From contig NZ_KE952940.1 in the NCBI RefSeq assembly GCF_000466405.1, positions 1 to 35,878 on the forward strand: 35,878 nucleotides of DNA. Direction: 5' to 3'. Positions 14,621 through 18,773 of this stretch are shown piece by piece. The notes below the pieces were generated by a model, which searched no databases, was not told the origin of the DNA, and worked only from the letters and a program-made list of their open reading frames with translations. Position 1 is the first letter of the stretch. Every line of letters starts with the position of its first letter. Source of the stretch: Atopobium sp. oral taxon 810 str. F0209 (GTDB lineage Bacteria; Actinomycetota; Coriobacteriia; Coriobacteriales; Atopobiaceae). Made by a program: the position numbers and the translations under genes.

Positions 14621-15718
14621 CTACTTTTCGTCGACCCCCCGCTTGCGCACGCGACGTGCAATACGGTCAGTCAACGATAGCTTCTCTCTACGGTCAACAC
14701 CCCAAAAACAAAGCGCTACCATACCAGGACCCACATGAGAACCTAACACGGGAGAAACCGAGCTACGAATAACTGCGACATCTTCGCAACCCTTTTCTTT
14801 GCGAACCTGAGCTTCAATCCAGTCCGCATCTTTGTCGGCATCGGCCGAGACAATACCCAGCGGTAATGAAGAGTCGTGGGCATAGTTATCACGAAAGTCT
14901 TGCAGAATGGCACGCAGAGCTTTTTTGCGACCACGGCACACGCCACGCAGTGTGAGGGAACCATTGGTATCGTAAGAAAGCTCGGGCTTCATATCTAACT
15001 TTCCTCCCAACTGAGCTGCTGCGGGCGGAATACGTCCACCCAAACCCAACCAATGCAGACTATCAAGAGTGAAGTAACCATGCACAAAATAGCGTGCATC
15101 CTGTGCCCATGCATAGAGCTCCTCAGCGGTCAAACCCAAAGAAGCTTGACGCACGACTTCAATAGCCAAAAGCTCTGCTGCGGCCGAATCACAGCAGTTA
15201 TCTAGCACATATAACTCAAAGTCTGGATATTTTTCGGCAATCATCTCTGCAGCTTGTCGAGCAGAGTTAATAGTTGAGGAGAGACCTTCAGACAGGCAAA
15301 GGTAGAGCGTGGGCGTGCCTTCCTTGGCAGCGTTCTCAAAAATCTCAAGGTATGTGCCTGGCGTGACTGCCTCAGTGGTAAAACGTGCTTCAGGATTTTT
15401 GCGCATGTACTCATAGAAGTCATGCGGCGTCTGTGAGGTCCAAAGATCATCCTCATGCTCACCATCAGGACCTACATAGCGGAAGTGAATCACCTCGACG
15501 CCAAGCTGTTTTAAAACTTCAACGTTGTAGTCAGAGGTGGTATCTACAATGATGCACGTCGTACGCTTTTTGTGATATGCGTTGCCAATACGTTTTACTT
15601 CAAGAGGGGCTACAGCGGACGTGCTGCCCTCATTTTGTGGGGGAAGGGCCCCGCTGTTGGCAGCAGAGCCCTCCTGAATATCAATGTGCTGTTCGTTCTC
15701 GCGACTAAGCTCGCTCAT
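14621..15718 (-). CDS. DegV family fatty-acid-binding protein
   Basis: A 365-residue DegV-fold protein. Some members (FakB) carry fatty acids for a FakA kinase. The N-terminal domain starts after about 50 polar residues with TCIIVDTTSDYNVEVLKQLGVEVI. The TTEAVTPGTYLEIF, LSEGLSSTINSARQAAE and HVGPGMVAL motifs follow. The start is the ATG at 15716-15718, set by GAGGAG 5 nt upstream. A longer in-frame reading would run further into hpf. It overlaps the last 14 nt of hpf, so the two are co-translated. No fakA is in the window. Confidence 0.9.
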   Translation of the reverse strand: MSELSRENEQHIDIQEGSAANSGALPPQNEGSTSAVAPLEVKRIGNAYHKKRTTCIIVDTTSDYNVEVLKQLGVEVIHFRYVGPDGEHEDDLWTSQTPHDFYEYMRKNPEARFTTEAVTPGTYLEIFENAAKEGTPTLYLCLSEGLSSTINSARQAAEMIAEKYPDFELYVLDNCCDSAAAELLAIEVVRQASLGLTAEELYAWAQDARYFVHGYFTLDSLHWLGLGGRIPPAAAQLGGKLDMKPELSYDTNGSLTLRGVCRGRKKALRAILQDFRDNYAHDSSLPLGIVSADADKDADWIEAQVRKEKGCEDVAVIRSSVSPVLGSHVGPGMVALCFWGVDRREKLSLTDRIARRVRKRGVDEK

Positions 15719-16298
15719 CGTACTCCTCGATCTTTGGCTTGATAATGCCGTAACCACCATTGTGGCGATGGTAGATGACATTTATAAGACCGGTCGTTGC
15801 ATTCTCAAAAACAAAGAAATCGTGGCCGAGCAAATCGGTCTGCACCAGCGCCTGTTCCTCAGTCATAGGCTTGAGATCAACATACTTCTCACGTACAAGC
15901 TGATCGTCGTCCTCACTTGGCTCAATCAAATCTGCCAAATCCTCTACAGAGGTAGGCAGAGGACGAGGCATAGTATGACCTGCATGCTGATGGCGATCGA
16001 CCACACGAGTCTTATAACGACGCAGCTGACGAGCTACTTTGTCAGCAGCTTCATCAATTGCCGCATACATATCCTGGGCCTCAGCAACAACACGTACGAC
16101 AGTATCACGAACAAAAACCGTAACCTCGCAGGCACGACGCTCAGGGTTAGAGCGATTTTTGTCCACACGCAGTACAACATCGCAGGTCATAGGCTGAATA
16201 TCAAACACCTTGAGGGCACCACCAATTTTTTCCTCAACGGCATCGCGCATGGCGTCCGTGACGCTAACCTTGCGTCCCGAAATCTTAATATCCACCAT
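15705..16298 (-). CDS. hpf: Ribosome hibernation promoting factor, long form (RaiA/HPF)
   Basis: Binds between ribosomal subunits and dimerises 70S ribosomes into inactive 100S particles under stress. Residues 1-100 are the RaiA/S30AE domain (MVDIKISGRKVSVTDAMR, then IDEAADKVARQLRRYKTR). A linker leads to the C-terminal dimerisation domain (VREKYVDLKPMTEEQALVQ to GLINVIYHRHNGGYGIIKP). The length of 197 residues is typical of the long form. AGGAGG is 5 nt before the ATG. The next gene downstream, degV, overlaps its end. Upstream in the same direction are a lipoprotein gene, the 264-nt RNA and comF. Confidence 0.97.
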   Translation of the reverse strand: MVDIKISGRKVSVTDAMRDAVEEKIGGALKVFDIQPMTCDVVLRVDKNRSNPERRACEVTVFVRDTVVRVVAEAQDMYAAIDEAADKVARQLRRYKTRVVDRHQHAGHTMPRPLPTSVEDLADLIEPSEDDDQLVREKYVDLKPMTEEQALVQTDLLGHDFFVFENATTGLINVIYHRHNGGYGIIKPKIEEYDERA

Positions 16299-16403
16299 CG
16301 GCGCCTCCTTGCTGTAGTCCTATAAAACGAGGGCTCAAAAGCTATGCCCTATTGCTTTGATACCCTCTCTTACCCAAAGCATCACCAACAATCCGCTCAG
16401 CGG

Positions 16404-17597
16404 CTACTCTTGGGGCGTGACTGTTTCTTCGCCACTTTCACCTTCATTTGTGCTATAGGCGGTCTCCTCACCACCTGTAGCTTCAGTATTGGTCTCAGCA
16501 GCGTCAGCATTTCCACCTTCGTTATAGTCGTTATACGTGTTGTAATTGCCGTAGTCGCTGTAATCAACATAGCTGCCATAACCAGAATTAGCAAAGCCCT
16601 CAGAATCACCTGTATTTGCAGGCGCTGTTGCTGTACCTGCATTGGTGGCCACTTCAGGAGCATCATCTTTCTTCTCGGTAATTTTGATGCCGCCTATCTG
16701 CGTCTCAGCACTCAGGCCTGCAAATTTACCCAACCACCTCGTGCGCAAGATAGTATCAACACCATTGGATTTAAGGGTCTCAAGAGCACGTCCTATTTCA
16801 GTAATGAGACCCTTGTTAGAAGAAAGCACAGCGATACCGCGATTTACAGGAGCTATCAGGCTACCGGCAAAGTGAATATCCTTGTACTGATTGGCAAGAA
16901 AAGCACCAGCATAGGCATCACAAAGCACATATTCAACTTCACCGGCATCAAGAGCATCAAAAGCTTCATTGAGGTTGCTATAAGATTTTTGATTCATCTT
17001 GAGATCGGTACGACTAAGAGTTGCCTCAGAAGACTTCCCTGCCACCAAACCACAACTCTTACCTGACAGTTCTTTTTTATCGAGCACGCGCTCATCGCCG
17101 CGATAAAAGAAAGAAGGTGCTGCTTCATTGGTTTGGCCAACAATACTGCATTTCTTAACATCATCCTTTGAAACACCCAGCACAATATCAACGGTATTGG
17201 CACAGGCAGAATCAATATCGCTCACATTCACAAAGCGCACGTCCAAGCCCAGCTCATCAGCCAGTGCCTCGCCCAGCTCGATGCCGTAACCCTTAACAGC
17301 GTCGCCACCCAGAGTCGAGAGTACAAAAGGTGCCGAAGTTAGATTGGTGTTGATGCCAATTGTGAGTACGCCAGCCTCACGAATAGTAGGCTCCGCCAAA
17401 TCAGAGCCACTACGTTTGAGAGAAGCAAGACCATCAGCGATACTTCCCTGCTTTGTTGTTGAGGAAGTGATATGAGACAAGTCTGGTAGCTCAAAGGGAA
17501 GTTGAAAAGGAAGTTTGGCTTTGCAGCCCATCAAGCAACTCGTAATAAGTACGGTACAAACAAGGCCAGTGAGCTGCTTTTTTGTACTTCGCCCCAT
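16404..17597 (-). CDS. Family 3 solute-binding lipoprotein with Tyr/Asn-rich tail
   Basis: A 397-residue lipoprotein. The signal peptide has the lipobox LMGC with lipidated Cys25. Residues about 70-305 form an amino-acid-type binding domain (GVLTIGINTNLTSAPFVL, KGYGIELGEALADELGLDVRF, AFDALDAGEVEYVLCDAYAG), like those feeding polar amino acid ABC importers. No permease or ATPase gene is next to it, so it may serve a remote transporter or act as a sensor. The last 90 residues are low complexity, with seven Tyr in 20 residues (340-359). GAGAGG precedes the ATG. It sits between the structured RNA and hpf and may be read through from the RNA promoter. Confidence 0.85.
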   Translation of the reverse strand: MGRSTKKQLTGLVCTVLITSCLMGCKAKLPFQLPFELPDLSHITSSTTKQGSIADGLASLKRSGSDLAEPTIREAGVLTIGINTNLTSAPFVLSTLGGDAVKGYGIELGEALADELGLDVRFVNVSDIDSACANTVDIVLGVSKDDVKKCSIVGQTNEAAPSFFYRGDERVLDKKELSGKSCGLVAGKSSEATLSRTDLKMNQKSYSNLNEAFDALDAGEVEYVLCDAYAGAFLANQYKDIHFAGSLIAPVNRGIAVLSSNKGLITEIGRALETLKSNGVDTILRTRWLGKFAGLSAETQIGGIKITEKKDDAPEVATNAGTATAPANTGDSEGFANSGYGSYVDYSDYGNYNTYNDYNEGGNADAAETNTEATGGEETAYSTNEGESGEETVTPQE

Positions 17598-17641
17598 ACA
17601 CTATCCTCTCAAAGCCACTATGAGCTTACTCAAAAATCACA

Positions 17642-17905
17642 GTCTTCCCAGCTGACCTGGTATTTGACCCCACACTCGCGCACAGGAGTCTTCGCTTCGG
17701 GCGACGCGGTGCCCCCACTACAAACTCTCTCGCCCGCGAGATGGAATATCTCTAGTAGGACGGGCGGTGCGGCTTACCTCTAGGACGAGCCATGCTCGCT
17801 CGGATCGCGATCCGAACTTACGTGGATCCTTTTGACCTCGTCTGTCATGGACTAAGACGCACAGGCTATAGCCCTTTGCGTCCGCAACCACAGACCTGGA
17901 AAGAC
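17642..17905 (-). ncRNA. Structured 264-nt RNA, probable raiA RNA
   Basis: This GC-rich, non-coding stretch folds by eye into a closed structure. The ends pair as a 10-bp stem P1 (17896-17905 with 17642-17651, one G-U). Inside are 17890-17895 with 17840-17845; 17877-17882 with 17856-17861, capped by GGCTATAGCC; the 16-nt perfect hairpin 17800-17815; CGAGC-GCTCG at 17786-17798; and 17731-17736 with 17761-17766 enclosing GAGAT-ATCTC. The first P1 base is 8 nt after a consensus -10 box, and T5 follows 5 nt past P1. comF lies upstream and hpf (raiA) lies downstream after one gene. Known raiA RNAs of Firmicutes and Actinobacteria are similar in size and sit near raiA and comFC. That it is a structured RNA is nearly certain; the family name rests on context. 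Confidence 0.75.
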
Positions 17906-17912
17906 AATACGT

Positions 17913-17921
17913 ATTATACCA
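17913..17921 (-). promoter_or_regulatory. Extended -10 promoter of the structured RNA
   Basis: On the minus strand TGGTATAAT gives a perfect -10 box (17913-17918) with the extended TGn motif. The -35 region is poor. Seven nt further on is 17905, the first base of stem P1, so the promoter and the RNA fold agree on the start. It lies between the comF stop and the RNA. Confidence 0.75.
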
Positions 17922-17936
17922 GCTGCTTACCTTTGC

Positions 17937-18773
17937 CTACCATGCGCGCGCAAGAGAACAGGCAGTGACCGATTGAGCACCACGTCCAAGCAGCACACGC
18001 GTACTTTCACGCAGGGTAGCACCCGTTGTAATAACATCATCTACCAACAACAGACGTGCATCAGCTACATCATCTATCACCTCCACTGAACCTTCTAAGT
18101 TGCGCAGGCGACCCTGTCTATCCAGTTCACGCTGGTCGCGACCCTCATGGCGTAGCAATACGTCATACACAGGCAGACCCAGTAAAGTTGCAAGCACCTG
18201 CGAAATAAGTTCCATATGGTCAAAACCGCGACGCATAAAAGCCAAAGGTGAGGCAGGTACAAAACAGATTCCATCTAACTCCTGAGAGTCATAACGTGCA
18301 CAACCATCTGCTGCCGCCCAGCTTGCCGCTTCATCAAGGGCTGTAGCCATCAAAGCTGCAATAATAGGAGCCAAACGCAACTCGTGAGAGTCTTTAAGTG
18401 TGGTTACAAGCAAAGCACCGCTACCTGAAAACTCTAGTGCCGAGATAGTCGCACGAGCTTCCCAGTGATAGGGCGCAAGACCTCCATCTGTATCAGAGTT
18501 TTCCCGCACACGTCTTTCACGCAGGGCTTCTGCTCCGCAGTTTGTACAGGTTAGCCAGCCATGTGGAGTGCCACAGATGGGACAGGCATAGCGTTGTTGT
18601 ATCCACTTGAGCTTCTGACGACAATCACCACAAAGCAGCTGACCTGGCATATCACAGACGATGCAGCGAGTAGGCCACATCAACTCGATGAGATGGTCAA
18701 GTAAATGAGGTTCTAGATTATATGGCTGATTTTCTTGATATGAACTCAAGGCAGGGCAACTCCCCTCGCGCAC
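17937..18773 (-). CDS. comF: ComF family protein (ComFC-like)
   Basis: A phosphoribosyltransferase-like protein involved in DNA uptake in competent bacteria. The N-terminal zinc finger has four CxxC-type pairs (CIVC, CGDC, CPIC, CTNC, residues about 37-80). The C-terminal PRTase domain carries the PRPP loop LLLVDDVITTGAT. The length of 278 residues assumes the GTG at 18771-18773, which lacks a clear SD. A TTG further in, preceded by GAGGGGAG, is an alternative start, so the first residues are uncertain. It ends the metG-rsmA-tatD-comF series. Confidence 0.9.
   Translation of the reverse strand: MREGSCPALSSYQENQPYNLEPHLLDHLIELMWPTRCIVCDMPGQLLCGDCRQKLKWIQQRYACPICGTPHGWLTCTNCGAEALRERRVRENSDTDGGLAPYHWEARATISALEFSGSGALLVTTLKDSHELRLAPIIAALMATALDEAASWAAADGCARYDSQELDGICFVPASPLAFMRRGFDHMELISQVLATLLGLPVYDVLLRHEGRDQRELDRQGRLRNLEGSVEVIDDVADARLLLVDDVITTGATLRESTRVLLGRGAQSVTACSLARAW

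Follow-up and report, generated by a model that had tools for sequence, protein, structure and literature searches.

The window, by which we mean the whole 35,878-nt stretch of DNA that was analysed, carries on its minus strand a raiA (ModT) RNA that lies downstream of comF and upstream of a gene for an SBP_bac_3-type lipoprotein (SBP1), with hpf as the second gene downstream. The features are listed in the direction of transcription:

17937..18773 (-): comF (TIGR00201, PF18912, PF00156), ending 31 nt before P1, with the promoter in the gap
17913..17921 (-): extended -10 element TGGTATAAT with no -35 and a predicted start at about 17905, from the sequence and its conservation in the class
17642..17905 (-): raiA (ModT) RNA, of 264 nt once the outermost P1 pair is counted, from RF03072 and covariation
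17896..17905 (-): 5' arm of P1, GTCTTTCCAG, with compensatory change at 9/9 model pairs among 70 class loci
17856..17882 (-): P2 hairpin (GACGCA/TGCGTC), an insert relative to the 209-nt model, from the cmscan alignment
17826..17852 (-): P3, composed of P3a (GTCC/GGAT) and P3b (TGAC/GTCA), placed after the cryo-EM architecture (PMC11751092)
17783..17843 (-): pseudoknot pk-1, pairing AGACGAG of the P3 loop (17843-17837) with CTCGTCC (17789-17783), from covariation
17642..17651 (-): 3' arm of P1, CTGGGAAGAC, on the same basis as the 5' arm
17632..17641 (-): short gap and then a T5 run after P1, in this genus a candidate terminator that is weak and off-register and that the terminator scan did not report
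16404..17597 (-): SBP1, an SBP_bac_3-type lipoprotein of 397 aa, first gene downstream, starting 45 nt after the RNA
15705..16298 (-): hpf, encoding a long HPF/RaiA ribosome hibernation factor (PF02482 and PF16321, TIGR00741), second gene downstream

A reading of the sequence alone had proposed a 264-nt raiA RNA here and a search of the minus strand with the Rfam raiA model as its check. This search (cmscan) returned a match to RF03072 at 17904-17643(-) that covers the full length of the model (1-209/209) and scores 168.3 bits (E 9.7e-43), 67 bits above the gathering score of 101.3 bits, and it was the one Rfam match at the curated threshold across the whole window. With the pair G17905-C17642 added, the model match extends to 264 nt and its terminal stem to 10 bp, and the extra length relative to the 209-nt model resides in a P2 hairpin of 29 nt and in longer hairpins of the 3' domain. 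The cmscan match and the P1 sequence uphold the proposed position, strand, size and both ends of the RNA, and the name is correct as judged by the model score and by the covariation of P1 and internal helices. The window RNA is an ordinary, well-formed raiA copy, a plain member of the described family. A chance hairpin and a protein-coding origin of the 17642-17905 stretch were rejected, as was the notion that the RNA is a mere product of the comF 3' UTR.

Covariation was assessed in a fold alignment of 95 RNAs, 70 of them from Coriobacteriia, with slid helices serving as controls. The 10-bp terminal stem (17905-17642) is present: P1 is paired in 94% of class cells versus 38-60% when slid, with all nine model pairs showing compensatory change. 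Pseudoknot pk-1, which joins the P3 loop to the P5/P6 junction and by which membership in the family is judged, is likewise present, paired in 92% of cells with 3 compensatory pairs versus 0-1 in the slid controls. Each of three helices in the 3' domain has 2-4 compensatory pairs and is paired in 99-100% of class cells. P3a and P3b, for which the published helix numbering appears to map onto the window sequence, are paired in 100% and 92% of cells, respectively (70 loci). For P2 (89% of cells paired, 6/6 pairs compensatory) the evidence is weak, because the slid controls also reach 5-6. The earlier reading had drawn at least five internal helices by eye and had asked for covariation across Coriobacteriia; covariation is seen in pk-1 and the 3' domain, with weak evidence for P2. 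A two-pair helix in the Rfam model (CG/GC, model positions 54-55 with 79-80) is unsupported, with 11% of class cells paired. The second pseudoknot, pk-2, comprises two pairs only and its residues are nearly invariant; cryo-EM also shows non-canonical tertiary contacts (PMC11751092).

Seven nucleotides separate TGGTATAAT (17921-17913) from G17905, such that P1 begins at +8 relative to the extended -10, exactly as had been counted from the sequence. An extended -10 (TGnTAnnnT) occurs 3-14 nt before the RNA in 78/90 class loci versus 0.5% of random anchors in the same loci, more than chance would give, and before raiA outside Coriobacteriia in 1/25 loci. A -35 box finds no match at the window (best 2 of 6), and none is conserved in the class. 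The more extra pairs P1 has, the farther the -10 lies from the model start (rho 0.40, p 1e-4), and in 50/89 class loci the outermost P1 pair follows the -10 at a distance of 6-7 nt. Both the conservation of the -10 and a spacing that tracks P1 length agree with the earlier claim of a single 5' end to which both promoter and fold point. From these sequence features, the raiA RNA is expected to have its own promoter throughout the class, with a predicted start that coincides with P1.

The RNA is present in 379/398 Coriobacteriia genomes (310/316 of the good ones), nearly always in single copy and once in the window's own genome, and in 101/296 Actinomycetota genomes, a sample that includes Coriobacteriia. 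Only three class genomes have two raiA matches (G119, G188 and G369); in G369 both score identically on one contig, making an assembly duplication likely. Among named relatives the nearest is Olegusella massiliensis, whose ComF is 89% identical and whose raiA (166.3 bits) occupies the same place, and the window host is an Olegusella-like coriobacterium. A search for Spo0A, in which Bacillus subtilis served as positive control, detected it in 0/149 class genomes; sporulation therefore cannot be what maintains raiA here, and these Spo0A-less genomes separate the core role of raiA from sporulation.

The sequence-only reading had placed the RNA between comF and hpf. Its upstream half stands, whereas the adjacent downstream gene encodes the SBP_bac_3 lipoprotein and hpf comes second. 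In a survey that took in 90 loci of the class, with 23 families sampled, and 25 loci outside it, an orthologous SBP1 directly follows the RNA in 84/90 class loci (median gap 35 nt, IQR 32-51) versus 0/25 loci outside, where hpf is downstream in 21/25. The exceptions within the class are one genus (g4: L020, L026, L057) along with L061, L025 and L100; in the g4 loci and L061, SBP1 is lost and hpf is next after the RNA. The g4 loci belong to the window's family, and there hpf lies 214-227 nt past the RNA and T-rich sequence follows the RNA. Within the class, 65/90 loci have a comF gene in the same direction no more than 300 nt away, and hpf lies within 4 kb in 26 of the 56 loci whose sequence extends to that distance. 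Deep families continue after SBP1 with an amino-acid ABC uptake operon, made up of genes for a canonical SBP2, a permease and a GlnQ-like ATPase, and in three loci hpf comes after these. In family f2 (L041, L058, L104-L114) 10/13 loci have comF on the opposite strand and hpf is not found within 4 kb, yet the RNA-SBP1 arrangement is intact in 13/13, and we count this retention despite unlinked comF and hpf in favour of an RNA-SBP1 unit. Earlier gene-order work, in its summarised form, gave comFC upstream in 74% and raiA downstream in 66% and judged gene order uninformative on function; on these frequencies the comF/hpf context is usual for raiA, not required. Within Coriobacteriia, gene order does point somewhere, namely to a single SBP1 clade behind the RNA's own promoter. 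One apparent SBP1 without RNA (G368) was dismissed because runs of N interrupt the assembly at that point. A genome that gave no raiA match has, close to an SBP gene, a T-box leader-like match (L123, 1048-1328; 69.6 bits, below the cut-off of 93).

The window SBP1 scores 25.1 bits against PF00497, below the cut-off of 26.4, and matches TIGR01096 at 2.6e-12; it has a lipobox (C25) and a Shine-Dalgarno sequence. Profile matches to PDB entries reach 1.3e-51, the solved relatives being amino-acid-binding proteins and sensor domains such as that of BvgS. In a tree, SBP1 forms one clade versus SBP2 and other paralogues with 100/100 support, and the two rows labelled 'par' inside this clade are the RNA-adjacent SBP1 copies themselves. 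Scored with a profile built from 31 SBP1 sequences, a partly circular comparison, RNA-adjacent SBP1 reaches 250-334 bits versus at most 156 for the best other copy. In two genomes outside this profile, G179 and G016, SBP1 scores 250 and 306 bits versus 113 and 110 for the best others, and no second SBP1 copy near its score was found in the genomes searched. The TxTxxR carboxylate-binding motif is missing at its place in the window SBP1 and in 82/84 SBP1 sequences; SBP2 keeps the motif. On sequence, SBP1 appears as a clear homologue of the SBP_bac_3 fold and not as a canonical member: it resembles that family in fold (TIGR01096, PDB profiles), in its lipobox and in the permease and ATPase that deep families add, and differs from it by the absent TxTxxR motif and, in the window's family, by having no transporter genes beside it. 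An AlphaFold2 model of SBP1 from two sequences (pLDDT 30) was discarded.

A terminator scan found none between the RNA and SBP1, and P1 followed by a U-rich tract, a terminator-like arrangement, occurs in 12/25 non-class loci versus 6/90 class loci; these six include the SBP1-less L026 and L057 and, weakly, the window. Both the window and its sister species carry a T5 run immediately past P1, where some termination may occur. The SBP1 Shine-Dalgarno sequence sits in the RNA-SBP1 gap and reaches a length of at least 4 in 65/66 first loci, and the gap seems too short to accommodate a separate promoter as well. Between SBP1 and hpf (window 16299-16403) an AGGGC/GCCCT stem precedes TCGTTTTA; this could be a weak terminator, not listed by the scan, and would then separate hpf from the transcription of SBP1.

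We consider it probable that the locus encodes an independently promoted, trans-acting raiA/ModT RNA which in this class also leads the SBP1 transcript. Transcription would start at P1 from the extended -10 promoter and yield a stable, compact RNA that may act in trans on the growth-to-stationary transition, as it does in Clostridia. In the class, the transcript would continue into SBP1 and, in some families, into the amino-acid uptake operon or hpf, and cleavage or trimming close to the 3' end of P1 would release the RNA, leaving the remainder as SBP1 mRNA. A very strong stable-RNA promoter would in this way also drive a binding lipoprotein and tie nutrient capture to the RNA's growth signal. 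Against dependence on SBP1, the three g4 loci and L061 keep the RNA without SBP1, and therefore the RNA does not need SBP1; the SBP1-less genus offers a natural control. More tentatively, raiA and the degenerate amino-acid-binding lipoprotein could form an ancient, co-transcribed, class-wide pair that has outlasted the linkage to comF and hpf, in which case the work of the RNA might be tied to extracellular nutrient sensing or capture, not to ribosome hibernation or sporulation, with the RNA released from the mRNA by processing.

The same adjacency could mean that the RNA is a gene on its own, terminating after P1 (by Rho or at a weak site, for example the T5 run), with SBP1 expressed by read-through from comF or from a promoter inside the RNA gene and the gene order inherited without functional meaning. 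The T5 run in this genus and the frequency of a nearby co-directional comF, which makes upstream read-through possible, are consistent with such an arrangement. We regard it as unlikely in view of f2, whose comF mostly runs in the opposite direction and whose loci all retain the RNA-SBP1 order, and in view of the loss of most U-tracts in the class. Alternatively, the RNA might be a cis-acting leader that senses a ligand or protein in the manner of a riboswitch and controls SBP1 and amino-acid uptake genes in the class, as could be supposed from its class-wide place directly upstream of SBP1 across a narrow gap, from an adjacency that outlasts the comF and hpf linkage, and from the Rfam type label of RF03072 ('Cis-reg; riboswitch'). 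This typing conflicts with the published trans action, and trans complementation excludes a cis role in Clostridia (PMC11706538). Moreover, no riboswitch expression platform, neither a terminator (terminator scan) nor a sequestered Shine-Dalgarno sequence (80 loci, nested folds only), was found before SBP1: predicted Shine-Dalgarno accessibility is 0.44 with the RNA versus 0.46 without it, with a drop of over 0.3 in 2/80 loci, and sequestration by the RNA was thus rejected as a class-wide effect. As the RNA also persists without SBP1 in g4 and outside the class, a cis-acting leader is in our view quite improbable. The window itself departs from the class in predicted accessibility, which falls from 0.46 to 0.26 with the RNA (nested folds only).

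The release step raises the idea of a ribozyme, in which the compact pseudoknotted fold would cleave its own RNA or others, such as the precursors of tRNA or 5S, and also cut itself from the SBP1 message. Such an activity has been proposed on the basis of the fold and of the higher tRNA and 5S levels of a modT mutant (PMC11706538, PMC11751092), and the tandem place with SBP1 would require release of the RNA; we nonetheless hold it to be very unlikely, with no cleavage reported in the literature covered.

The preferred reading, a trans-acting RNA that also leads the SBP1 transcript, draws on modT of Clostridioides difficile, a trans-complementable, very abundant and stable RNA whose loss mainly changes genes for metabolism and for ABC transporters of sugars and amino acids (PMC11706538). 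Trans action is known only in Clostridia and by analogy may extend to Coriobacteriia; that raiA in another phylum is placed in front of the gene for an amino-acid-binding lipoprotein is in keeping with the transporter effects of modT, as a correlation. The earlier description of an unresolved function holds for the molecular activity, few bacterial RNAs of no known activity being as highly conserved as raiA, and falls short in that knock-outs, trans complementation and cryo-EM structures have been published (PMC11706538, PMC11751092, PMC12286853). The class RNA resembles raiA/ModT of Clostridium acetobutylicum and Clostridioides difficile in its full-length model match, P1, pk-1, conserved core, upstream comF and own 5' promoter. 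It differs from the clostridial RNAs in having an extended -10 without -35, a longer P2 and other hairpins (262-264 nt versus about 209-210), no clear P1-linked terminator, SBP1 and not hpf directly downstream, and no Spo0A. The RNA itself is already known; the class-wide RNA-SBP1 unit is possibly new, as it is not described in the literature covered, which did not extend to the discovery paper of 2017 or to the main gene-order paper (Soares 2024, PNAS). In its features, raiA shares with the ornate RNAs OLE, ROOL and GOLLD a large size, a high degree of structure, abundance and an unresolved activity, whereas raiA resolves as a monomer and those as multimers (PMC12286853).
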